The translations under genes and the position numbers were made by a program. 61,045 nt of DNA from Ruminococcus sp. (GTDB taxonomy: Bacteria; Bacillota; Clostridia; Oscillospirales; Acutalibacteraceae). The notes under the pieces were generated by a model. That model did no database searches. It was not told where the DNA came from and saw only the letters and a list, made by a program, of their open reading frames with translations. The stretch spans positions 1-61,045 of the forward strand of contig JAFTGC010000046.1 in NCBI GenBank assembly GCA_017458105.1, written 5' to 3'. Of the stretch, positions 46,463 through 58,583 are shown piece after piece. Each line of letters opens with the position of its first letter. The stretch's first letter is position 1.

Positions 46463-46669
46463 TTGAATATAGATGAAATTTTTAAAAGCTATGGTATAAG
46501 CCCTATTCCAAAGGACGCAACCGAAGCAATGGCTTATGTTCCTTACCAAAGCAATAATCCGAAATTTTATTCGCATCACCACGGTTTTGAATCGGGGACA
46601 ATTTTCCCTTCTCTTCACAAACCTTTTATGTGTTATGAATGTATGGAGGAGGATGACGATAATGAGTGA
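46463..46669 (+). CDS. cotJA: Spore coat-associated protein CotJA
   Basis: 68 residues. IFKSYGISPIPKDATEAMAYVPYQ is the CotJA signature, and the acidic end (CYECMEEDDDNE) fits the family. TTG start at 46463 with AAAGGAG 7 bp upstream. CotJA, CotJB and CotJC are made in the mother cell under SigE in Bacillus and enter the coat together. It overlaps cotJB by 8 bp. Confidence 0.9.
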   Translation: MNIDEIFKSYGISPIPKDATEAMAYVPYQSNNPKFYSHHHGFESGTIFPSLHKPFMCYECMEEDDDNE

Positions 46670-46904
46670 AAGAGACATACAACTTAAAAAACTTTCATGT
46701 ATAGCATTTTCTATGCACGATCTTAGGCTGTTTTTAGATACGCATCCCGATTCTACCGAAGCTATGGAAAAATTAAATGACCTTGAAAAAATTTTCAAAC
46801 CTTTGAAAGAAAAATTTGAAAAAAAATTTGGTCCGCTAAAAATTTCTAACGCCGATAATGCTGTTGAGTGGATAAAAGGGCCTTGGCCGTGGGAGGTTAA
46901 CTGA
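46662..46904 (+). CDS. cotJB: Spore coat protein CotJB
   Basis: 80 residues. LKKLSCIAFSMHDLRLFLDTHPDSTEAM and the C-terminal WIKGPWPWEVN are diagnostic for CotJB. ATG 46662 lies inside the cotJA end with GGAGGAGG about 8 bp upstream. Its stop overlaps the cotJC start by one base. Confidence 0.92.
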   Translation: MSERDIQLKKLSCIAFSMHDLRLFLDTHPDSTEAMEKLNDLEKIFKPLKEKFEKKFGPLKISNADNAVEWIKGPWPWEVN

Positions 46905-47323
46905 TGTTTGTTTATGAAAAAAGATTGCAGTACCCTGTGAGGATAAAAAAACCTAACGCAAAACTTGCTAAAATTATTATAACACAGTATGGTGGTCCTG
47001 ACGGTGAGCTTGGAGCTTCTCTTAGATATCTTAGCCAACGTTATACTATGCCTTTACCTGAACTGCAAGCGACATTGACGGATATAGGTACGGAAGAACT
47101 AGGTCATCTTGAAATGATTGGTGCAATTGTATACCAGCTCACAAAAGATTTAACTATTGAGCAAATCAAAGAAGCCGGATTTGATGATTATTTCGTTGAC
47201 CACACTACAGGAATTTTTCCGACCGCTGCCAGTGGTATGCCATACACTGCGGCTTCTATGCAGGTAAAGGGCGATGCTATCACTGACCTTCATGAAAATA
47301 TGGCTGCAGAGCAGGGGTTATGA
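46904..47323 (+). CDS. cotJC: CotJC, 5' part, interrupted by an integrated element
   Basis: Spore coat protein of the manganese catalase family. The first 137 residues are native (MFVYEKRLQYPVRIKKPNAK, GELGASLRYLSQRYTMP, DIGTEELGHLEMIGAIVYQL, GDAITDLHENMAAEQ). After GAG CAG (47309-47314) the frame runs into the inserted element and adds only GL before a stop. Two ferritin-like helices with their metal ligands are present; the other two are encoded at 58118-58363. Joining at the GAGCA core restores AAEQKARTTYEN in frame and a 216-residue protein. As it stands the product is truncated and probably inactive. Confidence 0.93.
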   Translation: MFVYEKRLQYPVRIKKPNAKLAKIIITQYGGPDGELGASLRYLSQRYTMPLPELQATLTDIGTEELGHLEMIGAIVYQLTKDLTIEQIKEAGFDDYFVDHTTGIFPTAASGMPYTAASMQVKGDAITDLHENMAAEQGL

Positions 47324-47332
47324 AAGCACTAC
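47289..47332 (+). other. Left attachment junction (attL)
   Basis: Host cotJC sequence ends at the core GAGCA (47309-47313). The element begins GGGGTTATGAAAGCACTAC, whose 17-base arm (47316-47332) is the inverted partner of the arm at the right end (58095-58111), matching at 14 of 17 positions. Confidence 0.8.
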
Positions 47333-47362
47333 GTTATGTTATATAAACCTTATTATTGAAAT

Positions 47363-47391
47363 CGACACAGTTTTTCTGTGTCGGTTTTTTT
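47363..47391 (+). terminator. Terminator just inside the element's left end
   Basis: CGACACAG-TTTTT-CTGTGTCG followed by GTTTTTTT. It would stop cotJ transcription shortly after entering the element. Confidence 0.92.
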
Positions 47392-47487
47392 CTTGCAGAT
47401 TTTTTGCAATAAAAACAAAAAATAGCTAAAGATTTCATTCTATACAATATGATAGAATATTATCAAAGAGACAAAGGAGTGATGCTT

Positions 47488-47529
47488 ATGATTGCATTTA
47501 ATCACAATCAACGAATTATTATATTTTAG
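47488..47529 (+). CDS. Possible 13-residue leader peptide
   Basis: MIAFNHNQRIIIF, with AAAGGAG 8 bp before the ATG, ending 14 bp upstream of the 139-residue protein gene. An ATTCTAT/ATAGAAT inverted repeat lies upstream (about 47438-47459). Could be a leader or chance; the ribosome site is good. Confidence 0.35.
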   Translation: MIAFNHNQRIIIF

Positions 47530-47543
47530 AAAGGAAACCTACT

Positions 47544-47963
47544 ATGAATAATTATAACAACGAGTATAACAACGAAACAAGCAGAGGCTTGGTATTACAC
47601 GTTTATAATACGATTATGGATATGTTATCATATGATAGTCTTTATGATGATGATAATAATTATCTCAACACAATTAAAAGAATTAATAAAATTGAAAGAA
47701 TGAAGCCCTTTATGCCGACCAGCATTTTTGATGCATTTAAAAGTTTCATTAAAAACAACATTGAGCCAATAATTGATGACGGTATTTCGCTTGAAGGCTT
47801 CCTGACCTCAGAATATGGTTGCAGAAATGATAAAGGCATTTTTGAATTTAAGGATGAAATGAGCGCGAAGCTATTTGTCGGACGTGTAATGCAACATTGT
47901 ATAGAGCTTCAAGAAAAATTCTTAAAATTAGCTATGGATGAAATTAGCCCCTATTTTCAATAA
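47544..47963 (+). CDS. Hypothetical protein of the cotJC element
   Basis: 139 residues, not recognised. It has an Asn/Tyr/Asp-rich start (MNNYNNEYNNETSRGLV, YDSLYDDDNNYL) and a predicted helical remainder (FDAFKSFIKNNIEPIIDDGI, EMSAKLFVGRVMQHCIELQEKF). No signal peptide, membrane segment or metal motif. GAAAGG lies upstream. It is the first full gene after the left junction and has its own terminator, so it may be expressed separately from the rest. Confidence 0.7.
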   Translation: MNNYNNEYNNETSRGLVLHVYNTIMDMLSYDSLYDDDNNYLNTIKRINKIERMKPFMPTSIFDAFKSFIKNNIEPIIDDGISLEGFLTSEYGCRNDKGIFEFKDEMSAKLFVGRVMQHCIELQEKFLKLAMDEISPYFQ

Positions 47964-47980
47964 ACATCATCAAAAAGATT

Positions 47981-48018
47981 AACAGCACTACCAAAATCAA
48001 CGGTAGTGCTGTTTTTTT
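47981..48018 (+). terminator. Terminator after the 139-residue protein gene
   Basis: A 12-bp perfect stem (AACAGCACTACC and GGTAGTGCTGTT) followed by seven U. The stem contains GTAGTGC, the same heptamer found in both attachment arms, though at 7 bases this may be chance. Confidence 0.92.
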
Positions 48019-48037
48019 AAAAAATTTTATAAAAATG

Positions 48038-48066
48038 TTGCAATGCTTTAAAGTCTGTTTTATAAT
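48038..48066 (+). promoter_or_regulatory. Promoter of the GHKL-type ATPase gene
   Basis: TTGCAA (48038-48043), 17 bp, TATAAT (48061-48066). It rules out an ATG at 48035 and supports the TTG start at 48089. Confidence 0.75.
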
Positions 48067-48088
48067 AAAGAAAAGCGAGGTAGTGATT

Positions 48089-49240
48089 TTGCATAATTTC
48101 AATTTCATCTTTAAGCACAATGGATCGCATAGTAACAAAAGAAAAATAAGAATCTCTAACAAACACTCAAACAAACAAATAATCTGTCAAATTAATAATA
48201 CTCAGTTTGGTGCGTTTGTATTAAATCAGATTATTGATTTTGTTAATTCGTTAAACTCCGCATTAAAGGGATTTCCAATTGTGTTTTATTTTAGTAAGCC
48301 GATAAAGCTCAGAGATAAATTATCATATATTATCTTTGAATGCATTTGCTATTATTTGATTGAGCAGGGTTATGTAGTTATTGTTCGCATGAAGTGTTCG
48401 CACGACATTAGAACCTGCGGTATACAGTATTCCCCACTTCAATTATTGCAAAACGGTAACTGCGATAAATTTGTAAAGAAGTTCAACAATGAAATCTATG
48501 GAAATCATTTTTGTAAATTAATAACTGAGCAAACAAAAAAGAATCCAGCTTTTCTTTCATTGCTTTATACTGAAATAGATTTGTTTTTAAAAAATGTTGG
48601 AATAAATGACAGTAGAAGAGATGAAGTATCACAAACTATCTCAGAGTTAATCGGCAACGCCTGTGAGCACACATTTTCAGATTGTTATTTTGATATTGAT
48701 ATTGCAGACGATTACTATAAAATTAATGATGATATGAATGTGGATACTACTATAAAATATTACGGTATAAATATTGTAATTCTTGATTTTTCTGAGAAGT
48801 TACTTAACGATGGGATTAAGGATAGAATTAAAAATATTCCGCAAAATGTAGACAGGTATAAAAAACTGTTAGAAGCATATAATTACCATAAACAGTTTTT
48901 TGGTTCTGAATACACAGAAGATGATTTTTTTAATATCGCTACTTTTCAAAACAGGATTTCAGGAAATCCGAATAAAGAAGAAGTAGGTGGAACAGGCTTA
49001 ACATATTTAATAAAATCCTTACAAGAAAAAAGTGATAGTGATGATTGCTATGTTTTGTCTGGAAATAATATTATATATTTTCAAAAAGAGTTTTTAATAT
49101 ATAATGAGGATTGGATTGGTTTTAATGAAAGCAACGATTTTTTCCATTGTGTTCCGAGCCAAGAAGTTTTGAATAGATCTCAAATGTTCTTTGCTGGAAC
49201 AGCATACAATTTAAATTTTGTAATGAAGAGTGAGGATTAA
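48089..49240 (+). CDS. GHKL (histidine-kinase-like) ATPase domain protein
   Basis: 383 residues. The ATP-binding N box is SELIGNACEHT (about residue 205) and the G box EVGGTGLTYLIKS is near 310, so a Bergerat-fold ATPase is likely. There is no HisKA dimerisation domain or transmembrane segment. The N-terminal half (QFGAFVLNQIIDFVNSL, GFPIVFYFSKPI, LIEQGYVVIVRM) resembles a STAS-like regulatory fold. Similar proteins are usually paired with a small DUF4325/STAS-type partner; here only a 17-codon ORF follows. TTG start with GAGGT 7 bp upstream. Confidence 0.7.
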   Translation: MHNFNFIFKHNGSHSNKRKIRISNKHSNKQIICQINNTQFGAFVLNQIIDFVNSLNSALKGFPIVFYFSKPIKLRDKLSYIIFECICYYLIEQGYVVIVRMKCSHDIRTCGIQYSPLQLLQNGNCDKFVKKFNNEIYGNHFCKLITEQTKKNPAFLSLLYTEIDLFLKNVGINDSRRDEVSQTISELIGNACEHTFSDCYFDIDIADDYYKINDDMNVDTTIKYYGINIVILDFSEKLLNDGIKDRIKNIPQNVDRYKKLLEAYNYHKQFFGSEYTEDDFFNIATFQNRISGNPNKEEVGGTGLTYLIKSLQEKSDSDDCYVLSGNNIIYFQKEFLIYNEDWIGFNESNDFFHCVPSQEVLNRSQMFFAGTAYNLNFVMKSED

Positions 49241-49241
49241 T

Positions 49242-49295
49242 ATGAGTAATTCAGTAAGTTTTCATATGCAGAGATGTAATGAAAGTTTTGTGTAG
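49242..49295 (+). pseudogene. 17-codon ORF after the ATPase gene, possible gene remnant
   Basis: Starts one base after the ATPase stop with GTGAGG upstream and reads MSNSVSFHMQRCNESFV. The tight spacing is that of a translationally coupled partner gene, but the product is far too short. It may be the stub of a deleted partner, or a small peptide. Confidence 0.35.
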
Positions 49296-49319
49296 CAGCA
49301 AATGAGCCGTGACGTTTTT

Positions 49320-49348
49320 TGCGCAGCTCTTTTGGAGTTGCGCATTTT
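49320..49348 (+). terminator. Terminator after the ATPase gene
   Basis: TGCGCAGCTC and GAGTTGCGCA pair over 10 positions with one G-U and a 5-base loop, then UUUU. Confidence 0.8.
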
Positions 49349-49400
49349 GATTTTATATAACACCTATATCATAAATCAAACGCGACTTGAAAAAAGCCGT

Positions 49401-49429
49401 TTTACTGCGTAGGCGAGCTCAGCTATAAT
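49401..49429 (+). promoter_or_regulatory. Candidate promoter of the membrane protein-lipoprotein pair
   Basis: TTTACT (49401-49406), 17 bp, TATAAT (49424-49429), 27 bp before the GTG start at 49457. Confidence 0.6.
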
Positions 49430-49456
49430 TTATTATTTTATAAGGAAGTGTTTATT

Positions 49457-50557
49457 GTGAGCAAGAAAAAGGTTAGGATTATTATAATTGCTTTAGTGGT
49501 GGTTGCCGTTATTGTAGGTGTGTTTTTTGGTGTGAAAGCCTACAACAACTACATAACACAACAGCAAATTGAAACACGCCAAAAGGATATTGAGAGCGCT
49601 TATGCAGATTTTGAAGCAACGAACGACAGATCGGAAAAGCTAAAAATACTTTCACAGTTCATAGAAGATAAACCGTCAACAGCAGACGAGATTTCTCTTG
49701 AAGTTGTAGAAGCGGTCGAGCCCGATTATACAGAAACGCTTGGAAAAATGAAAGCGTATTTTACAGATGATTATAACTCCGTTATTAAGAAAAATACATT
49801 TTCAGATATAGATATAAAAAGCGATAGAGAAAAACCGATTTCCGCTATTGAAAACCTATCCAAATTGATTATTACTGTAGAAGATGAAAAAGCGATTGTA
49901 TTCAAATCGGATAACGGTGGTTACAAAAATATATCAGACACAATAAACGGACTAATAAACAAATACAGAAAGAATTTTACTGATGATTATAGTGCTGTTA
50001 TAAAAGCTAATACATTTGACAGCCCGGAAAAAATTGATGATAAAGATAAGCTAAATAACGCAATAACAAGCCTTACCAAGCTAAAGAAAACTGTTGAAGC
50101 TGAAAAATCTGCCGTTTACGGTAATGATGAAAAAGCTTATAATAATATCGTCGGCACAATCGACGGATTGATTTCAAAATACAAATCAAGAATTACCACA
50201 ATAGAAAAAGAAGCGGAAGCAAAAAAAGAAGCTTCCTATAGCACCGAGAATAACAACACAAGCGCTGATAATTCGGATAATCAATCATACGAAAGTAATA
50301 ATCATTCGGGAAACAACTCTGATTCTTCTGATTATAGTTCCGGCGATTCCGGCTCTAATAACAGCGGTTCAGGAAGTTCTGATAATTCCGGTTCTTCCGG
50401 TAATTCCGGCTCCGGTTCTGGCGGCGGATCAGGCGTATATAATAGTTGGTATAAAAATGGTGATGGAAGAATTAGTTATTTTAATGATAGTACAGGAGAA
50501 GCTTGGGATGACCAAGGAAATAGTTGGAACTGGAAAGAGATTCAAAAAAATAGTTAA
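49457..50557 (+). CDS. Membrane-anchored Ser/Asn/Gly-rich protein
   Basis: 366 residues. A short basic start (SKKKVR) and one membrane helix (IIIIALVVVAVIVGVFFGV) leave most of the protein outside the cell. Residues 85-235 contain two related units (AYFTDDYNSVIKKNTFSDID and KNFTDDYSAVIKANTFDSPE), each followed by a Leu/Lys-rich helix ending NTING or GTIDGLI-type. A low-complexity Ser/Gly/Asn stretch (about 262-325) precedes a compact C-terminus (YNSWYKNGDGRISYFNDSTG, with WDDQGNSWNWKEI). GTG start with AAGGAA 9 bp upstream. The function is unknown; surface exposure is inferred. Confidence 0.75.
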   Translation: MSKKKVRIIIIALVVVAVIVGVFFGVKAYNNYITQQQIETRQKDIESAYADFEATNDRSEKLKILSQFIEDKPSTADEISLEVVEAVEPDYTETLGKMKAYFTDDYNSVIKKNTFSDIDIKSDREKPISAIENLSKLIITVEDEKAIVFKSDNGGYKNISDTINGLINKYRKNFTDDYSAVIKANTFDSPEKIDDKDKLNNAITSLTKLKKTVEAEKSAVYGNDEKAYNNIVGTIDGLISKYKSRITTIEKEAEAKKEASYSTENNNTSADNSDNQSYESNNHSGNNSDSSDYSSGDSGSNNSGSGSSDNSGSSGNSGSGSGGGSGVYNSWYKNGDGRISYFNDSTGEAWDDQGNSWNWKEIQKNS

Positions 50558-50573
50558 ATAAGGAGTAAAATAT

Positions 50574-51374
50574 ATGATGTTAAGAAAACCTATTGCAGTT
50601 ATTATCATTTCTATAATTGTTTTATCAATACTTTCAGCCTGCGGCAAAACAGATTCTGAGCCGACCAATGCAAGCGAAAACTCTACGATTGCAACAGAAA
50701 TAACGACACAAATTGAAACACAAGAGCCAACAACAGAAGCAACACAAGAACCGACTACAATAGAGCCAACGCAAGCTCCTACAGATGAAGAAAAAGCAGT
50801 TGATTTAACACAATCCTATACCACAAAATTTAAAGATGTAAACAGTGTATCTTTTCCAAAATTCACTTTTGACTATCCCGATAATTGGACGGTAACGCAA
50901 GAGGATGTTACCTCCGACAGAGAGATCGTCACTCTTTCCAATGGCGAGGGTGCAGAAGTCAAATTTTCAACCTATTTCTACGGAAAAGACTTCAATTTCA
51001 GTCAAGGAGCTTCAACCTTTGGCAGAGTTGAGGTAACGGAAGCTGACGGCTCGCAGTTCGTTCCGTCAACCGTACAGGGTACAGATCATTCAGATCTCGG
51101 CGAATTTATGGTTGCAAAGCTACATCAAACAGGCGTAATGTATATCACTAACGGCGATTCCGATTACAGAGATATTGACGGCGAAACGGAGTATGCTGTC
51201 ATTCCAAAATCCGAGGTCGGAACAAAGACGGAGCTTTCGGGACATTATGAGGGCGAATTTGCTTTCTGGTATAACGCCTTTGTATCGTTCATCGGCAAAG
51301 ATACCGACGGTGATTTTACGGAACAAGAACAGCAGGAAGTCATTTCGATTCTGAATAGCTTTCGATTAGCATAA
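50574..51374 (+). CDS. Lipoprotein of the cotJC element
   Basis: 266 residues. Signal MMLRKPIAVIIISIIVLSIL with lipobox LSACG (Cys23), then a Thr/Glu/Pro-rich linker (TTEATQEPTT repeats), then a folded domain (SVSFPKFTFDYPDNWTVTQED, GAEVKFSTYFYGKDF, FAFWYNAFVSFIGKDTDGDF) resembling PsbP/lipoprotein-type domains with a YPxxW segment. AAGGAG upstream. It lies 16 bp after the membrane protein gene and is probably co-expressed. The role is unknown. Confidence 0.8.
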   Translation: MMLRKPIAVIIISIIVLSILSACGKTDSEPTNASENSTIATEITTQIETQEPTTEATQEPTTIEPTQAPTDEEKAVDLTQSYTTKFKDVNSVSFPKFTFDYPDNWTVTQEDVTSDREIVTLSNGEGAEVKFSTYFYGKDFNFSQGASTFGRVEVTEADGSQFVPSTVQGTDHSDLGEFMVAKLHQTGVMYITNGDSDYRDIDGETEYAVIPKSEVGTKTELSGHYEGEFAFWYNAFVSFIGKDTDGDFTEQEQQEVISILNSFRLA

Positions 51375-51393
51375 CAACAGCATAGGCACATTT

Positions 51394-51431
51394 AAAGCCG
51401 ATAGTACATCAAAAGGTGTACCGTCGGCTTT
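51394..51431 (+). terminator. Hairpin after the lipoprotein gene
   Basis: AAAGCCGA and TCGGCTTT enclose a second GTACA/TGTAC stem. The U-run is weak. A second small hairpin, GGGAGC-TTTC-GCTCCC (51471-51486), sits before the end of the convergent DnaJ-domain gene. Confidence 0.6.
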
Positions 51432-51492
51432 CATTATGTAACAGGGTGGGATGGTGGGAATACAGATTAAGGGAGCTTTCGCTCCCCTAACC

Positions 51493-51996
51493 TTATATAA
51501 CAGCTTTCAGCTTCTTTTCTTCCTCTTGCTTTTGGTCGTAACGCTTTGAGCCGAACATATCACGGATTTCATCAAGTGTAAAATCAACGTGACTTTTCTT
51601 TCTGTACGGCTCGGCGTGATAATACCAAGCCTGTTTTTTGTGCGCCCACTTGAATTTTAATTGTTTCAGCGTTTCCCTGTGGGGCTTTGTGTCGCCTGAT
51701 ACCCAAATCCATTTACCGCAAATTTCAACCTCTACGCCTACAAGCGTAATAAGCACATTAATGATATGTATAAATTCCTTCGGCGTTTCGGTGGTTTCCT
51801 GCTTGGCTGTGTAGGTCTTACCCTCGGCGGTTTGGTGTATGTCTTTCAGGCGTTCCCAGAGTTTTTCAAATTCGGCTTGCATTTCCTTGAACGCTTCGCC
51901 GTCGCCCCCGACAATGTCGGGGTGCAACTTCATAGCGAGTTTGCGATAATCTTTTTTGAGTTCCTCGGCTGTTCTGCAATTCCTAAAATATTTCAT
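51493..51996 (-). CDS. DnaJ-domain protein of mobile elements
   Basis: 167 residues. J-domain at 1-50 with the HPD motif in KKDYRKLAMKLHPDIVGGDGEAF. The C-terminal half (WIWVSGDTKPHRETLKQLKFKWAHKKQAWYYH) matches proteins of conjugative elements and phages in Clostridia. It may recruit DnaK to an element complex; unproven. It overlaps the DUF3846 gene by 4 bp. Confidence 0.82.
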   Translation of the reverse strand: MKYFRNCRTAEELKKDYRKLAMKLHPDIVGGDGEAFKEMQAEFEKLWERLKDIHQTAEGKTYTAKQETTETPKEFIHIINVLITLVGVEVEICGKWIWVSGDTKPHRETLKQLKFKWAHKKQAWYYHAEPYRKKSHVDFTLDEIRDMFGSKRYDQKQEEEKKLKAVI

Positions 51997-52325
51997 AATC
52001 TCACACCTCTTGCACTAAATTTATCAATGTATTTCTGAATAAGATTGTCAGGCATACTTTCAAAGTTTTCACTGTCGCACGGTGCGTAGCAGAGGAAAAA
52101 ATCACCGCAGATAAAATCACAAATTCCGTTGTTGCGGTTAAGCAAATAGCGGTTCGGCATTGAGCCGTTAATTTTTCCTTCTTCGTTGCAAACTAAAGCA
52201 ACTTCATCATCAAAGGGATAAATAGCTTGAATATAGCCGCCGACAACGGCTTGCATACTCTTTAAGTCGCCTTTGATTTCTTTTACATAGGGGTTAGTAA
52301 ACGGTTTTACGATAATGACTTTCAT
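51993..52325 (-). CDS. DUF3846 protein
   Basis: 110 residues: MKVIIVKPFTNPYVKEIKG, then GGYIQAIYPFDDEVALVCNEEGK and the SMPNRYLLNRNNGICDFICGDFFLC pattern of DUF3846. Common on plasmids, ICEs and phages of Firmicutes, with no known function. Coupled to the DnaJ-domain gene. Confidence 0.82.
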   Translation of the reverse strand: MKVIIVKPFTNPYVKEIKGDLKSMQAVVGGYIQAIYPFDDEVALVCNEEGKINGSMPNRYLLNRNNGICDFICGDFFLCYAPCDSENFESMPDNLIQKYIDKFSARGVRL

Positions 52326-52718
52326 TTTGTTTAGCTCCTTTTCTTTGAAATTTGATATTCGGTAATTTTGAGTTGGTGGGCTTTCAAAAACCCGATATTC
52401 AGTTGTATGCTGCTATCACCTGTCCTTTCTGTTTTCGGATATTCGTATAAATCGTCGTCGTATGGGCTTTACGGTCATAAAAAGGCGCAGAGAATGAGAT
52501 ATGTCAAGAAGCAAGTTTACGATACGCCGTAGGGCAATTCTTGATATAGCGAAATTCGCGGAGCAAAATATGCACCTAAAGCCAATGACGGCGATTTTGA
52601 ATATCTGAAAGCAGAAAGGAATCAGGTGTGAGCATAAAACGGTTAAAATATCGAGCAAAATAATAACGCTACGGCAAAAACCGTAGCGTTTCAACTTAAT
52701 TGAATCTGTACTTTATAT
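52326..52718. other. Gene-poor stretch inside the element
   Basis: About 390 bp without a convincing gene. The plus strand contains short open fragments, such as one reading KANDGDFEYLKAERNQV, that look like decayed coding sequence. The right part is the terminator of the repressor gene. Confidence 0.4.
52665..52690 (-). terminator. Terminator of the repressor gene
   Basis: AACGCTACGG and CCGTAGCGTT form a 10-bp perfect stem; the minus strand continues ATTATTTTG. It starts 29 bp after the repressor stop. Confidence 0.7.
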
Positions 52719-53441
52719 TCAGTTCTCTTTCAGTTCATCTATCCTGTTAATCTTTTCTTGAATCTCAGATGATAAAACTTCATTATTTACCCTATTTTTC
52801 AAATTTTCAAAGTCTTGCTTCAATAGCAGAAGTTCACTTTGTATAACTGATTGCGGTTTTTGAGCAGATATTTTTTCTAATTCTTCATCAGGAATCAAAG
52901 CGTATTCCTTATAATATATTTCCTTCTGCCCATGTGTTTCAGTGATAAAATCATTACGTTCTTTTTCTATATTTTCAGTAAATGGTGACGGTAGTTTTTC
53001 AGAACTAATACTTGTAATATAATCGTAAAAACGACTATCCATTTTAATGTTTATATATTTAAAGTCATTTTGCTTAATAACAAAAATCGGCGCAACAATT
53101 GTACCCGGTTCTCTTTCATCAATCTTTTTCCCTTTTATTTTATCAAAAAATTCAGCGAAAAGATCAACCATACATTCCGATTTACCTAAAATATAGTCCG
53201 GATTAATATAATGCAACCTATATAATGCTTCCAACACATATTCGGGGATCACCTCTCCATTTTTAAACTTTGAAAAATCTGAATTAATAAGATTCGAACT
53301 ACATAAAGCATTGATTTCATTGATTACATCGGAATTATTCTTCCTTTCTTTAATCCCTGTTTTAAGATAGTCCATTACTTTTGAAAATCTTTCACCTTGC
53401 TTTTTTAATGTATCTTCTGATTTTAAAATGTTTTTACTCAT
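52719..53441 (-). CDS. Phage-type repressor-like protein with coiled coil
   Basis: 240 residues. The first 95 residues have the pattern of a helix-turn-helix repressor (ALCSSNLINSDFSKFKNGEVIPEYVLEALYRLHYINPDYILGKSE; the INPDYILGK end is typical of Cro/CI-like proteins). The C-terminus (QSVIQSELLLLKQDFENLKN onward) is a predicted coiled coil. ATG 53441 with GAGGTG 6 bp upstream. It is transcribed divergently from the DUF961-Rep-FtsK genes, the position of an immunity repressor. Confidence 0.7.
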   Translation of the reverse strand: MSKNILKSEDTLKKQGERFSKVMDYLKTGIKERKNNSDVINEINALCSSNLINSDFSKFKNGEVIPEYVLEALYRLHYINPDYILGKSECMVDLFAEFFDKIKGKKIDEREPGTIVAPIFVIKQNDFKYINIKMDSRFYDYITSISSEKLPSPFTENIEKERNDFITETHGQKEIYYKEYALIPDEELEKISAQKPQSVIQSELLLLKQDFENLKNRVNNEVLSSEIQEKINRIDELKEN

Positions 53442-53628
53442 GATAGTCACCTCTAAATCATTATAAAATAAATAAATATATTATTAAAGTACTTATTTGC
53501 TTTTTTTTGCAATAATTGAAAAATTCAATAAATAGTAATTTTGAAAACAATATGTTAAACTTTAATTACAGTTCGAATTGATAATTTTTGGAGCAGTGCA
53601 CAGCTTCAAAGGAAAGGAGAAACACCAT

Positions 53629-53970
53629 ATGAAAAAACTATCTATCTTTAACTACTTCGATATCGAAAGTTTTTTGGCTGGATTGACTTTAATGTTTATC
53701 AGACAAAGTGAATGGCGTGATTATGATACACAAAAAGTATTAGGCACGAAAAATGAACTGGTAATAATTGAGGATAATAATGACTACGGTTCTACCAACG
53801 GCGAAGTAGTCAATAACCTCTTTGAGAAATTAGTAGTCAAAATCCCGAAGAAATTGGATAATATTCCGCTTCAATCAAAGGTTCGTTTGGTAAATCCCGA
53901 AGCAGTTGTTTATGGCGAATTCCGTAATCAACTTAGCATCACTGCCGATGATATCGAAGTGATCGACTAA
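53629..53970 (+). CDS. DUF961/YdcP-like protein
   Basis: 113 residues. KKLSIFNYFDIESFLAGLTL, then VVNNLFEKLVVKIPKKLDNI and VRLVNPEAVVYGEFRNQLSI recall the DUF961 (YdcP) proteins located next to the coupling ATPase and relaxase genes of ICEBs1- and Tn916-like elements. The function is unknown. ATG 53629 with GGAAAGGAG upstream. First gene of the replication/mobilisation block. Confidence 0.65.
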   Translation: MKKLSIFNYFDIESFLAGLTLMFIRQSEWRDYDTQKVLGTKNELVIIEDNNDYGSTNGEVVNNLFEKLVVKIPKKLDNIPLQSKVRLVNPEAVVYGEFRNQLSITADDIEVID

Positions 53971-53979
53971 AAAAGTTTA

Positions 53980-54020
53980 GTGGCAAGGTGCGCCCCCTAT
54001 AAGGGGCGCAACCGAGCCAC
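53980..54020 (+). other. GC-rich stem-loop upstream of rep, candidate origin
   Basis: Outer stem GTGGC/GCCAC (53980-53984, 54016-54020) and inner 8-bp stem TGCGCCCC/GGGGCGCA (53989-53996, 54003-54010) with a 6-base loop. It stands out in AT-rich DNA, directly before the HUH Rep gene. That is where a double-strand origin or oriT nick site is expected. It has no U-run, so it is not a terminator. Confidence 0.6.
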
Positions 54021-54054
54021 ACTTAACTTGATTATCAGGTGATATTATTCCGCT

Positions 54055-55002
54055 ATGATTATAAAACGCAAGATAGATATACCTGATTATATTGATATCC
54101 ATAAGCCTGTCACTTTGAAATCTATGGGCAATATACAAGAAATAGCCATAACAGATAGCTTTAATCGAAACGCAACTGTTATTCCATTGTCTAAGGATTA
54201 TTATATTGTTGTTTCAACAGGAGAGGTTAAGGAAGTAGAACATCACGCAGGTGACAGAACCGAGAACCTACGCAATCTTCAAAAATCAATGCGCGCATTA
54301 TCAGATTTGATTAATGCTAATATCTCTCAAGAAAATGCTCATAATTGTCGTTTCATCACTTTAACTTATAAAGATAATATGCAAAACCCCGAACAACTTT
54401 ATAATGATTTTCGTAATTTCAATAAGCGGTTTAAGCGTTTTATAAAAAAACAGAATTATGATTATGAATATATTGTGACTGTTGAAGCGCAGGAGCGTGG
54501 AGCTTATCACCTACATTGCATTTATATTTTTGATAAAAAAGCTCCATATATTGATAATTTTAAACTTGCTGAAATATGGGGTTTAGGATTTGTATCGGTA
54601 AAAGCTATTGATAAAAATGTAGATAATATAGGGAAATACTTAACTGCCTATCTTGCAGATTTACCTATTTATAATAATGCGGACATTTCAACTGACGTTT
54701 TGGGCGGTTCAATTAAAGAGATAACAAACGGTAACAATACTAAACGCATTATTAAAGGTGCAAGATTAAAACTGCTGCCTGTTGGAATTCGATTGTTCCG
54801 ATATTCAAGAGGTGTAAAAAAACCAATAATTTACGAAACGACTTATGATGAAGCAGTTAAAACGCTATCTGATAATGGCTATACAAAAATTGCGGAGTAT
54901 GCTGTTGAGATTTCAGACACAGACCGAGATTTTCGAAACAGGTATATCAAAGAAACTTATAAAAAATTCATTAACACTAAAGGAGCTAATAATGGTACAT
55001 AG
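54055..55002 (+). CDS. HUH-type replication initiator / relaxase-like protein
   Basis: 315 residues. The HUH metal motif is HLH in ERGAYHLHCIYIFDK; RFITLTYKDN is the preceding motif and the catalytic Tyr is expected in NIGKYLTAYLADL. Such proteins nick one strand and stay bound to the 5' end for rolling-circle replication. Neighbouring FtsK-like and DUF961-like genes suggest an ICE-derived replication module. The ribosome site (AGGTGAT) is rather distant from the ATG. Confidence 0.85.
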   Translation: MIIKRKIDIPDYIDIHKPVTLKSMGNIQEIAITDSFNRNATVIPLSKDYYIVVSTGEVKEVEHHAGDRTENLRNLQKSMRALSDLINANISQENAHNCRFITLTYKDNMQNPEQLYNDFRNFNKRFKRFIKKQNYDYEYIVTVEAQERGAYHLHCIYIFDKKAPYIDNFKLAEIWGLGFVSVKAIDKNVDNIGKYLTAYLADLPIYNNADISTDVLGGSIKEITNGNNTKRIIKGARLKLLPVGIRLFRYSRGVKKPIIYETTYDEAVKTLSDNGYTKIAEYAVEISDTDRDFRNRYIKETYKKFINTKGANNGT

Positions 55003-56272
55003 ATTAAAGAATAGAATTAAATATCCTTATTTAATCAATGGTTGTAAAAATATGTGGAAGAAAAAGTATAAAATGCTATTTCCTATTTTATTCCTGATTG
55101 CAATTTGCTGTTCTTGGTTCGCATTAGACCAAAACATACTCAGTATAACAATAGAGTGGTTAGAAACATTCCTGTTGTGGAGCATTAGCATAGTGATAAT
55201 CTCAGTTTTTATAATCGGAGAATTACTCATTGTTTCGCTGATTGGTACGCCTTTATCAGCAAACAGGGTTCACAAGTGTTTATTAAATGTCGGATTCAAA
55301 GATAAATCCGGTGATACTCCGCTGTTGCTTTCACGATATAAAGAAGGCAAAACAGAAATATTTGAATTCTATTCGCCTACTTTGCCGCTTACAGAATACG
55401 AAAAGAAAAAATCAATTATCGAAAACGCGCTGAATATTCAAATCATTGACCTTATTGTTGGAAACGATTTACAGCATATTTTGCTAAAAACTGTTCCTGC
55501 TAAAAACAAATTGCCCGAAAAAATCGAATGGGATAGTTCGCTGTTACCGGAGAAACCAAGCAAGTTTGTCATTGGTGAAAGTCAGATAGATACAGTTTCT
55601 TTTGACCTTAATGTTACACCACACATTTTGATTGGTGGCAGTTCGGGCAGCGGAAAGAGCGCATTGTTCAAGCTGATTATAGCACAAGCAATTACGAAAG
55701 GATATGATGTTTATGTAGCCGATTTCAAGGGCGGAGTTGATTTTAACGGCTTTTGGAGAAACAAGTGCGATATAATCACTGATCGGGAAAGGTTAATGAA
55801 ACGCCTTGATTTCATTGTCAAGGAATTAGAAGCCCGAAAAGAAATGTTCCGAAAAACTAAATGCAATAATATTGTTCAATATAACAATATGCTTGGCTGT
55901 GATTTACAGCGTATCATTTTTGGTTGTGATGAAATTGCAGAATTGCTTGATAAGACAGGGTTAAGCAAAAACGAGAAAGAAAACATCAATCAGGTAGAAA
56001 GCAAGTTTTCTTTGATTGCTCGTCAGGGGCGTGCGTTTGGAATTCATATGGTTTTCGCAACACAAAGACCTGACAGCGAGGTTTTAAAAGGTCAAATCAA
56101 GAATAATTTTGATTATCGTATTTGCGGACGCGCTGACAAGGTTTTGTCACAAATTATTCTTGATAATCCGGAAGCCGCTGAAAAAATTGCTAAAGATGAA
56201 CAAGGTGTCTTTCTCACAAACACAGGCGTACTGTTTAAGGCATATTATTTGAATGAAGATTATATGTTTTAA
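54992..56272 (+). CDS. FtsK/SpoIIIE-type DNA translocase (coupling protein-like)
   Basis: 426 residues. Two membrane helices at about 30-50 and 60-85 (LFPILFLIAICCSWFAL; LLWSISIVIISVFIIGELLI), then a P-loop ATPase: Walker A GGSSGSGKSALFK, VYVADFKGGVDF, Walker B IIFGCDEIAELLD and a terminal arginine-finger region IHMVFATQRPDSEV. It resembles ConQ/TcpA-type pumps of small ICEs. ATG 54992 follows AAGGAG and overlaps rep by 11 bp. It would deliver element DNA, or move it, but secretion genes are missing. Confidence 0.88.
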   Translation: MVHRLKNRIKYPYLINGCKNMWKKKYKMLFPILFLIAICCSWFALDQNILSITIEWLETFLLWSISIVIISVFIIGELLIVSLIGTPLSANRVHKCLLNVGFKDKSGDTPLLLSRYKEGKTEIFEFYSPTLPLTEYEKKKSIIENALNIQIIDLIVGNDLQHILLKTVPAKNKLPEKIEWDSSLLPEKPSKFVIGESQIDTVSFDLNVTPHILIGGSSGSGKSALFKLIIAQAITKGYDVYVADFKGGVDFNGFWRNKCDIITDRERLMKRLDFIVKELEARKEMFRKTKCNNIVQYNNMLGCDLQRIIFGCDEIAELLDKTGLSKNEKENINQVESKFSLIARQGRAFGIHMVFATQRPDSEVLKGQIKNNFDYRICGRADKVLSQIILDNPEAAEKIAKDEQGVFLTNTGVLFKAYYLNEDYMF

Positions 56273-56304
56273 TATACTTTATTCATATAACAAGGTGTGA
56301 TTGA

Positions 56305-56406
56305 ATGGTAGAAGTAAACAATAATTTTCAGTCGGAAGATCAGAAACAAATAAAGCGTAATTTGAATGAAGCGCTCATACAGATAATACGGCTGAAAAGC
56401 AAGTAA
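56305..56406 (+). CDS. 33-residue small protein upstream of the recombinase
   Basis: MVEVNNNFQSEDQKQIKRNL, then NEALIQIIRLKSK. AAGGTGTG lies upstream of the ATG. It lies 32 bp after ftsK and just before the recombinase promoter. Its size, charge and position make it one candidate for a recombination directionality factor, but no family was recognised. Confidence 0.55.
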   Translation: MVEVNNNFQSEDQKQIKRNLNEALIQIIRLKSK

Positions 56407-56410
56407 AGCA

Positions 56411-56468
56411 TTGAAGTAAAGTAATCTATATGTTATAATAACAATGGTTTATATAGCATATAGATTAC
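56411..56468 (+). promoter_or_regulatory. Recombinase promoter with 12-bp inverted operator
   Basis: -35 TTGAAG (56411-56416), 17 bp, -10 TATAAT (56434-56439). GTAATCTATATG (56421-56432) lies in the spacer and its exact inverted copy CATATAGATTAC (56457-56468) lies downstream of the start. Tight repression or a hairpin in the 5' leader are both possible. Confidence 0.8.
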
Positions 56469-56497
56469 ACGCTTTCTTAGGAAAGGGTAAGGTTTAT

Positions 56498-58072
56498 ATG
56501 TTACAACAGAATAACAACCTTTCTCCTTTGAAAGCGGCTTTATATGTTCGACTTTCGAGGGAGGACAGAGATAAAATACGAAAGGAAGATGATTCGGAAA
56601 GTATCATCAATCAGCAAAATATGCTGATCAACTATTGCAAGGATAATCAAATAGAGATTTACAATATCTATAACGATGAAGATTACAGCGGTTCGGACCG
56701 TGAACGTCCTGCGTTCAACCGTATGATACAAGACGCGGAAAGCAGGAAGTTCAATATGGTTCTTTGCAAAACGCAATCGAGATTTGCGCGTGATATGGAG
56801 CTTGTAGAAAAGTACGTCAACGGTTTATTCCCGATTTGGGGTATTCGCTTTGTCGGCGTAGTCGATAACGCGGATTCAACCAATAAATACAACCGCAAGC
56901 AACGTCAAATCACCTCGCTTGTAGATCAATGGTATTTAGAGGACTTGTCCGAGAACGTCAAGGCTACTTTAGCTTCAAAACGCAAACAAGGCTTGTGGGT
57001 GGGCGCATTTGCTCCATACGGATATATCAAAGATCCCGATAACAAGAATCATTTGATTGTTGATGAAGAAGCTGCCGAGGTCGTCAAATATATCTTTGAT
57101 TTGTATTTGCAGGGCTACGGCATTACGCCGATCGCCCGAAAGCTCAATGAGCAAGGAATACCAAATCCTGCGACCTACAAGCAACAGCACGGTCAGCCGT
57201 TTCAGAACGCGCACAAGGAATGTTCGGATATTTGGCACACATATTCTATTGGGAGAATGCTGTCTAACTTAGTATATCGCGGCTGTGTCGTTCAAGGTAT
57301 GTCAGAAAACATATCCTATAAGTCAACAAAGAAGCGGCAAAAGCCGAAAGAGGAATGGGATATCGTCGAGGGCACGCATGAGCCGATTATCGACCAATGC
57401 ACTTGGGATAGAGTACAGCGGTTGAGGGCAAGCAAGCCGAAAGCCTGTAATATGGGCGAACCAAACATTTTTGCAGGAAAGGTCAAATGCTTAAACTGCG
57501 GGAGCTCCATGCGAATTTACTATACACATCACGAACGCTATTACCGTTGCAGTACACATTACTTTGCAAGTGATAGGTGTTCAGGTACATTCGTTTCCGA
57601 AAAGGTGTTACAAAGGGAAGTCCTCAAACAAATTCGGCTATTGTATCAGCAGTATGTTGATGAAGCGTATATATCCGAAAATCTGAATATCGAAAACGGA
57701 TATGTAGAAAAGACAGAAATGCTGAAATCGAGGATAAAAACCGCGGAACAGTCAATAGAAAAGCTGAACAAGCGGTATAAAAATCTCTATCTTGATAAGC
57801 TCGATGAAGTGATCTCAAAAGAGGAATTCTTGATGTTATCTGAGGATTGCAGAGCAAACAAGCAAGCCTTAGAGCAAGATATAGCGGACTATCAAAAGGA
57901 GTTAGCCTATATCACCACGCAAATTGACAGCACAGACAATCAGTTTGATGTTATAAGGCAATTCAAGGATATAAAAGAATTGGACAGCCTGACGGTCAAC
58001 ACATTGATTGACTACATAGAAGTCGGCGGCAGTAAAAACCGCCGTATCATCAACATTCATTGGAATTTATAA
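56498..58072 (+). CDS. Large serine recombinase (site-specific integrase/excisionase)
   Basis: 524 residues. Catalytic Ser20 in AALYVRLSREDRD; conserved resolvase-domain blocks NDEDYSGSDRERPAFNRMIQ, CKTQSRFARDMELVEKYV; recombinase domain with APYGYIKDP and YGITPIARKLNEQGIPNP; zinc ribbon CLNCG ... CS ... C (about 345-380); and a C-terminal coiled coil (about 400-480). ATG 56498 (AAGG upstream) is chosen over an earlier start inside the operator. It sits 45 bp from the right end and should catalyse integration into, and excision from, cotJC. Confidence 0.94.
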   Translation: MLQQNNNLSPLKAALYVRLSREDRDKIRKEDDSESIINQQNMLINYCKDNQIEIYNIYNDEDYSGSDRERPAFNRMIQDAESRKFNMVLCKTQSRFARDMELVEKYVNGLFPIWGIRFVGVVDNADSTNKYNRKQRQITSLVDQWYLEDLSENVKATLASKRKQGLWVGAFAPYGYIKDPDNKNHLIVDEEAAEVVKYIFDLYLQGYGITPIARKLNEQGIPNPATYKQQHGQPFQNAHKECSDIWHTYSIGRMLSNLVYRGCVVQGMSENISYKSTKKRQKPKEEWDIVEGTHEPIIDQCTWDRVQRLRASKPKACNMGEPNIFAGKVKCLNCGSSMRIYYTHHERYYRCSTHYFASDRCSGTFVSEKVLQREVLKQIRLLYQQYVDEAYISENLNIENGYVEKTEMLKSRIKTAEQSIEKLNKRYKNLYLDKLDEVISKEEFLMLSEDCRANKQALEQDIADYQKELAYITTQIDSTDNQFDVIRQFKDIKELDSLTVNTLIDYIEVGGSKNRRIINIHWNL

Positions 58073-58094
58073 AAACAATGAGCGTGTATTCTAT

Positions 58095-58140
58095 GTAGTG
58101 CATTGATAGCCTTATGGGAGCAAAAAGCCAGAACAACTTA
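58095..58140 (+). other. Right attachment junction (attR)
   Basis: The element arm GTAGTGCATTGATAGCC (58095-58111), six bases, core GAGCA (58118-58122), then cotJC sequence AAAAGCCAGAACAACTTATG. Joining the right and left element ends would form a 47-bp attP with the core near its centre. Confidence 0.8.
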
Positions 58141-58363
58141 TGAAAATATTCTTAGATTTTGTGATGATCCGGATGTAATTGATCCTATAAGATTCTTACG
58201 AGCAAGGGAAATTGTCCACTATCAGCGTTTTGGTGAAACCTTGAGGATTCTCACTGACAATCTTGACAGTAAAAACTTCTACGCATTTAATCCGGAATTT
58301 GACAAAGAATGTTTCCGAAAAAAACAAACTAAGAATAAAACTAAAAATAAAAAAACTGATTAA
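58118..58363 (+). pseudogene. cotJC: CotJC, 3' part, cut off by the integrated element
   Basis: Encodes EQKARTTYENILRFCDDPDV then IDPIRFLRAREIVHYQRFGE and the tail ending KNKKTD: the last two helices of a CotJC/manganese-catalase protein, including the metal-site Glu of AAEQKA and the REIVHYQRF block. It has no start codon or ribosome site of its own that would make sense; a TTG at 58103 lies in element DNA. It becomes part of a full cotJC only after excision. The cotJ terminator follows. Confidence 0.93.
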
Positions 58364-58410
58364 TAAAAATTAATTTTAAAGCAACCTTAAATTATTTATA
58401 GCTAACTATT

Positions 58411-58462
58411 GACAACACCGCACAAATCAAATACCAATATTTGTGCGGTATTGTCTTTTTTT
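58411..58462 (+). terminator. Native terminator of the cotJ operon
   Basis: 17-base arms (58411-58427 and 58439-58455) pair with one G-U, followed by seven U. The operon's terminator is thus 11 kb from the start of cotJC, separated by the element. Confidence 0.92.
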
Positions 58463-58494
58463 ATATACTTAAATTTAAAAAAATTATTATATCA

Positions 58495-58522
58495 TTTACA
58501 AATAATTTATTTGTGATATAAT
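58495..58522 (+). promoter_or_regulatory. Candidate promoter of the CoiA-like gene
   Basis: TTTACA (58495-58500), 16 bp, extended -10 TGA-TATAAT (58517-58522), 60 bp before the ATG. Confidence 0.55.
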
Positions 58523-58583
58523 TGTATCAAAATATAGAAAATATGCTATAAATACACACAAATACAAAACATTGAGGTAATTT

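Follow-up and report, generated by a model that had tools for sequence, protein, structure and literature searches.

Elements that carry recombinases are known to lie within sigK, spsM, spoVFB, gerE and yabG (PMC5025042; PMC5595907; PMC4191935; PMC10747680), and in the skin element of Clostridioides difficile the directionality factor is under the control of sigma E and SpoIIID (PMC5025042). The window analyzed here is a stretch of 61,045 nucleotides from Ruminococcus sp. (assembly GCA_017458105.1, contig JAFTGC010000046.1, forward strand), in which the spore-coat gene cotJC is interrupted by a 10,809-bp element bounded by copies of GAGCA at 47309–47313 and 58118–58122. This is very probably a sporulation gene-intervening element, whose excision in the mother cell would restore cotJC; both the occurrence of excision and its restriction to that cell are inferred. 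The reading rests on the rejoining of cotJC pieces in many genomes, site-bound recombinase lineages, purifying selection, a small open reading frame (ORF) beside the recombinase, and promoter enrichment. The original prediction, made from the letters of the window alone, described cotJC as split by a serine-recombinase element of about 10.8 kb, and profile searches and junctions agree. The single case it described is real, but the pattern is wider: it extends through the class, involves four sites, and can place several elements in one gene.

The interrupted cotJ operon

The cotJ operon is unbroken through codon 136 of cotJC; the next 10.8 kb are other DNA, after which the remainder of cotJC follows in frame. 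The features of the locus are:

46463..46669, + strand: cotJA, the first gene of the operon (CotJA PF11007, E 2.8e-12)
46662..46904, + strand: cotJB (CotJB PF12652, E 3e-22 on the longer ORF 46536–46904; start at the ATG at 46662 chosen by eye)
46904..47313, + strand: 5′ part of cotJC, left core included (Mn_catalase PF05067, E 1.4e-37, profile 1–151)
47309..47313, + strand: left core GAGCA, attL (joining analysis and comparison with locus L129)
47314..58117, no strand: element minus the second core (10,809 bp if the second core is counted)
47358..47388, + strand: terminator-like hairpin immediately inside the left end of the element (consensus match only)
58118..58122, + strand: right core GAGCA, attR (joining analysis and comparison with L129)
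58123..58363, + strand: 3′ part of cotJC (PF05067, E 5.4e-10, profile 150–216)

The family matches bear out the assignment of cotJA, cotJB and the two parts of cotJC in the original prediction. Its other structural claims were reproduced: GAGCA is common to both junctions, joining there in silico yields a stop-free CotJC of 216 residues, and the recombinase ORF stops at 58072, leaving 45 bp to the second GAGCA. An uninterrupted cotJC with the predicted joint, which was to be sought in close relatives, is present in congeners, and genome G074 reads GCTGCAGAGCAAAAGGCT. The element ends of a relative, L129, match those of the window up to GAGCA on both sides, and the host codons beyond differ. 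These matching ends, together with the whole gene in congeners, fix the junctions of the window. The 5-bp core is by itself not above chance: a frame-blind search of the window left four longest cores tied, two of them in frame. The claim that the operon terminator stands only after the second part was not confirmed. A terminator scan found one hairpin, at 47358–47388 (shuffles 0.0), and none within its loop limit in 58330–58530, where a hairpin with a longer loop and a T run is visible by eye.

An intact second cotJC was also looked for, and a manganese-catalase family search of the host draft (1.38 Mb, 51 contigs, 83.6% complete) gave no other cotJC match. The draft encodes Spo0A, SpoIVA and sigma-E-like and sigma-K-like factors, the last two as single open frames that score just below the NCBI cut-offs (343.9 vs. 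348.6 and 275 vs. 298.65 bits). Sequence comparison, through the congeners, the selection described below and these sporulation genes of the host, supports the interpretation that excision accompanies sporulation. In the proposed mechanism, a large serine recombinase would have joined attP of the element to attB, a stretch of conserved cotJC codons (AAEQKAR) surrounding a metal-ligand glutamate. As long as cells grow, cotJC would remain cut, and its transcript would probably end inside the element. Sigma E would turn on the recombinase in the mother cell, and probably also a small directionality factor encoded beside it. Recombination of attL with attR would then release the element as a circle and make cotJC whole, and the forespore, the founder of the next generation, would retain the element.

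Sites, recombinase lineages and selection

The gene is cut at four sites, each at a metal-ligand motif:

Site A: codons 30–34, QYGGPDGE
Site B: codons about 60–67, DIGTEELGH
Site C: codons 134–137, AAEQKAR
Site D: codon 175, HYQRFGE

Residues 2–184 of CotJC match residues 2–196 of the manganese catalase 1jku, in which we take the metal ligands to be Glu35, Glu66, His69, Glu148 and His181. With these numbers, the match places sites A to D on or beside metal ligands, and the most conserved codons presumably act as landing sites.

Complementary cotJC pieces were counted by hand in at least 76 of the 398 genomes of the family. The manganese-catalase family model matches 302 of the 398 and has no match in 96. 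Matches were listed for 115 genomes, namely those whose best score was judged weak from the table and three congeners whose cotJC is whole. The count is confined to these and would miss further split copies in genomes that have a strong whole match. The pieces end at the same few places in 56 of 65 and 20 of 50 listed genomes (manual count). The first, middle or last piece is absent in 9 of the 76 split-gene genomes. Pieces frequently lie on separate contigs, so that individual cases may reflect a break in the assembly; in G113 both are at contig ends. In a sample of the class, complementary pieces were found in about 18 of 118 genomes, from 12 other families, one of them lacking its middle (manual count of cotJC pieces). 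Within the window's genus, cotJC is cut at site C in the window, at B in G318 and at A in G259, and is whole in G074, G185 and G363. G185 was rejected as a split-gene case since it has a whole cotJC plus an orphan 3′ part (L051). The orphan lies 2.9 kb downstream, starts at site C and repeats the end of the whole gene almost exactly; it is preceded by DNA with GTAGTGC, as in the attR arm of the window, and no recombinase was found between. This could be an inactive element next to a cotJC that has been repaired.

Where both parts are on one contig (L035–L050), a recombinase ORF lies between them in 16 of 16 loci. A recombinase tree of 50 rows needs three switches of site label, which is the minimum, and none of 200 shuffles was as low. 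The rows of sites A (22), C (8) and D (2) form one group each and those of B (18) form two, in a tree made by a quick method with a long-branch warning that includes D and the smaller B group. Named genomes were scanned with eight site-C recombinases and the best 80 of at least 500 relatives were used; a cotJC piece with its end near site C stood in the fetched flank of 73 of these 80. They include Clostridium fessum, Roseburia faecis, Blautia, Anaerotignum, Anaerovorax, Sporofaciens and Anaerotruncus. Cultured carriers among the loci are Sporofaciens musculi WCA-9-b2, Roseburia faecis M72, Blautia sp. An249 and Anaerotignum lactatifermentans DSM 14214. On viral contigs, 6 of 75 recombinase loci had a cotJC piece.

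With joins confined to those in frame, a full-length, stop-free CotJC was regained at 40 of the 41 loci tried, a set that excluded fetched genomes with pieces missing (G091, G100, G142, G151, G264, G328). Ten of the 40 have two or three elements in one gene: two joins were needed in G121, G125, G206, G247, G253, G336 and G346, and three in G067, G099 and G106, the last with four pieces in order on one contig within 48 kb. For G255 the script gave no rejoined cotJC. The long core in G339 contains a scaffold gap of Ns, and in G259 and G191 a few extra codons remain at the joins, which are uncertain at that place. Shared cores of 8 bp or more occur in 19 of 53 junction pairs vs. 6 of 200 random pairs. 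At L140, L142, L151, L163 and L199 in named genomes, and at L210, L211 and L213 on viral contigs, the site-C piece itself begins close to site A or B, a sign that cotJC may hold additional elements there.

The four-piece genes, with pieces of about 30 codons, and the placing of cuts inside metal-ligand motifs make it scarcely credible that the parts are produced as separate polypeptides that then assemble, even though each part is an open frame (no systematic search was made for start signals of the 3′ parts).

Median dN/dS by region, in unsaturated pairs, was 0.10–0.15 for split genes and 0.10–0.27 for whole genes. In G119, G279 and G332, which belong to one genus and share the same minimal element with recombinases 69–73% alike, it was 0.02–0.07 in five comparisons, a sixth being saturated at synonymous sites. 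If the insertion was inherited there, cotJC has long been under selection while split. Judged by these ratios, both parts are under purifying selection; the original prediction had likewise held that the two halves are maintained, and parts unbroken across many species agree with it. Plain disruption, in which cotJC is inactivated and its pieces decay, would find some encouragement in that cotJC is not known as essential, that mutation of two cotJC-type genes in C. difficile is reported to leave the coat without a significant defect (PMC11222575), and that 96 of the 398 family members have no match to cotJC at all. It is nevertheless very improbable given the restoration of full length at 40 of 41 loci, the dN/dS of the two parts, which is far below 1 in each, and the recurrence of the same sites with site-bound recombinases.

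Control regions, cargo and mobility of the elements

The right-hand part of the window's element contains:

54055..55002, + strand: rolling-circle replication initiator (REP_ORF2-G2P, E 6.6e-22; phrog_3419, 1.2e-15)
54845..56272, + strand: FtsK/SpoIIIE-type ATPase (PF01580, E 1.5e-15; phrog_1358, 5.1e-54)
56305..56406, + strand: 33-codon ORF upstream of the recombinase, belonging to the small-ORF set found in 74 of 82 loci
56421..56468, no strand: perfect 12-bp inverted repeat GTAATCTATATG / CATATAGATTAC spanning the recombinase promoter (read by eye)
56438..56466, + strand: sigma-E-like promoter ATA-N16-CATATAGATT (pattern match; enriched in relatives)
56498..58072, + strand: large serine recombinase (Resolvase 6.5e-22, Recombinase 5.2e-25, Zn_ribbon_recom 2.7e-10)

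The recombinase has all the domains of a large serine recombinase: Resolvase, Recombinase and zinc ribbon. Its longest ORF is 56444–58072, and the ATG at 56498 is preceded by the ribosome-binding-like GGAAAGGG. Family searches with the 33-codon ORF gave no match. Short ORFs, of 33 to about 75 codons as called, lie upstream of 74 of 82 site-C-type recombinases in a set built by iterating a profile search (E 0.05), and a few of these may be due to chance; 6 of 88 loci were left out, five with short flanks and L148 by omission. By size and place they are candidates for a recombination directionality factor.

In the window a sigma-E-like site sits between the small ORF and the recombinase. The pattern searched for was ATA, 15–18 bp, CATA(C/T), which we take to be the sigma-E consensus. 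It is present upstream of 48 of the 77 named-genome loci, out of 80, that had enough upstream sequence (shuffle mean 5.3), and of 25 of 45 site-C-type recombinases when near-copies were removed (shuffles 3.2). Spacing of 15–17 bp alone stands out, with 24 of 45, other spacings giving 4–7. Viral-contig recombinases without cotJC had the pattern in 5 of 68 cases (3.3), or 4 of 33 with near-copies removed (2.4), and it was also found in 4 of 6 usable named-genome relatives without a cotJC piece. Within the family set it precedes 3 of 8 site-C (shuffles 0.5) and 7 of 17 site-B recombinases (1.2). A SpoIIID-like box, with near-copies kept in the set of 68 site-C-type recombinases, is a lead only: it was found on the minus strand in 30 of 68 (shuffle mean 8.2) and on the plus strand in 22 of 68 (mean 15.6, maximum 23).

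In the window a Rep protein and an FtsK-type ATPase accompany the recombinase, a gene content that might fit an integrative mobilizable element. A prophage-like element of the skin or SPbeta type was rejected, the ten element proteins having no convincing match to phage structural genes (one weak, E 0.0053). The 243-residue protein at 52719–53450 (− strand) is without a family match and might, as a guess, be the element's repressor. In L129 the recombinase is 96% alike to that of the window and the element ends are shared, but most of the cargo differs, and the stretch from Rep through FtsK to recombinase recurs in L132 and L133 at about 77%. At L131 and L136 the recombinase end of the element faces the 5′ part of cotJC, and insertion in both orientations therefore seems possible. 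The smallest elements, of 2.3 kb (L041, L042 and L105, in G119, G279 and G332), contain a recombinase, an Amidase_6 gene and a conserved ORF of 72–73 residues on the other strand; no replication gene was recognized in them. Locus L284 is on OY725852.1, Subdoligranulum variabile “plasmid 18,” a 23.9-kb “circular plasmid,” on which a 3′ part of cotJC follows a site-C-type recombinase at a distance of about 70 bp; the record may represent either a true plasmid copy or a piece of the chromosome. The joined attP was no more symmetrical than shuffles, and a 7-bp inverted repeat was matched by 81 of 2000; neither was counted as evidence.

These genes bear on another explanation, under which cotJC is a safe landing site for a mobilizable element that departs only for its own transfer, restoration being a by-product and not timed to sporulation. 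The rolling-circle Rep and FtsK-type ATPase fit it, as does movement between hosts: the DNA around the recombinase is 91% alike in the window and L129 vs. 73% for the 5′ cotJC region, and the cargo differs. The sigma-E-like promoters, the minimal elements without a recognized replication gene, and selection on both parts of cotJC argue otherwise, and this explanation is considered unlikely.

Some observations weigh against programmed mother-cell excision. No excised molecule was found, the viral contigs and the Subdoligranulum plasmid record giving integrated junctions or nothing usable. The joining script permitted in-frame joins only, and a frame-blind search for the longest shared core was added: 35 of 53 junction pairs have one longest core, in frame in 30 of the 35, and in 22 of the 53 one or more of the longest cores is out of frame. 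The dN/dS of 0.10–0.15 may largely reflect divergence older than the insertion, and a second cotJC could be missing because the host draft is incomplete. The role of the small ORF as directionality factor is a guess, the opposite strand is mildly enriched for the pattern (9 of 45; shuffles 3.5), and site-A recombinases have little promoter signal (3 of 20; 0.9). Finally, in the one-contig genome G396 about 2.1 Mb separates the parts (L091, L092), which are on opposite strands; cotJC would not be made whole there by simple excision, and the arrangement looks as if an inversion had one end in the element.

Beyond the window, it is likely that cotJC is a many-slotted, DNA-spliced gene across Clostridia, with five recombinase lineages (A, B1, B2, C and D), each tied to one of four metal-ligand motifs, and up to three removals per cell. 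Sigma-E control would lock host and elements together, the germ line keeping the elements and the terminal mother cell discarding them.

Comparison with known systems

Programmed DNA removal in sporulation had been described gene by gene, in a small number of species. Here, a single non-regulatory coat gene appears to be hit again and again, at fixed active-site codons and by recombinase lineages tied to each site, in a large proportion of clostridial genomes. This would explain “partial” cotJC genes in annotation, and it provides a natural series of recombinases with matched sites. The adaptation of elements to a terminal cell line becomes directly testable, as does the role of restored CotJC in the spores of gut bacteria. 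No report of a split cotJC, or of cotJC as the target of an element, was found in the literature searched, which left most subscription journals and preprints outside. As far as this search extends, the kind of element was already known, and the cotJC target, the breadth, the site-bound lineages and the several elements per gene are new.

In C. difficile, phi027 is a mobile element beside a CotJC-type gene; that gene, CDR20291_1465, is reported to be outside the attachment site and unsplit (PMC11222575). SPbeta in spsM (PMC4191935), vfbin in spoVFB and yin in yabG (PMC10747680) also lie in sporulation genes, and are excised or found excised in sporulating cultures; they differ in their targets, in being prophages or prophage-like, and in being reported from single species or strains. 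The gin element of gerE in Bacillus cereus resembles the cotJC elements in being non-phage, in using a serine recombinase with an extra factor, and in restoring a sporulation gene in frame, but it has another target, 28.6 kb, three recombinases, and one site in a few strains (PMC5595907). The skin element of C. difficile likewise has a large serine recombinase and lies in a sporulation gene of the mother cell, sigK; its excision is controlled by sigma E and SpoIIID through a small directionality factor (PMC5025042), a feature that the cotJC elements may share. In contrast, the skin target is a sigma factor, with one site and one element, and whereas the skin recombinase is made in all cells, those of the cotJC elements tend to have sigma-E-like promoters (PMC5025042).

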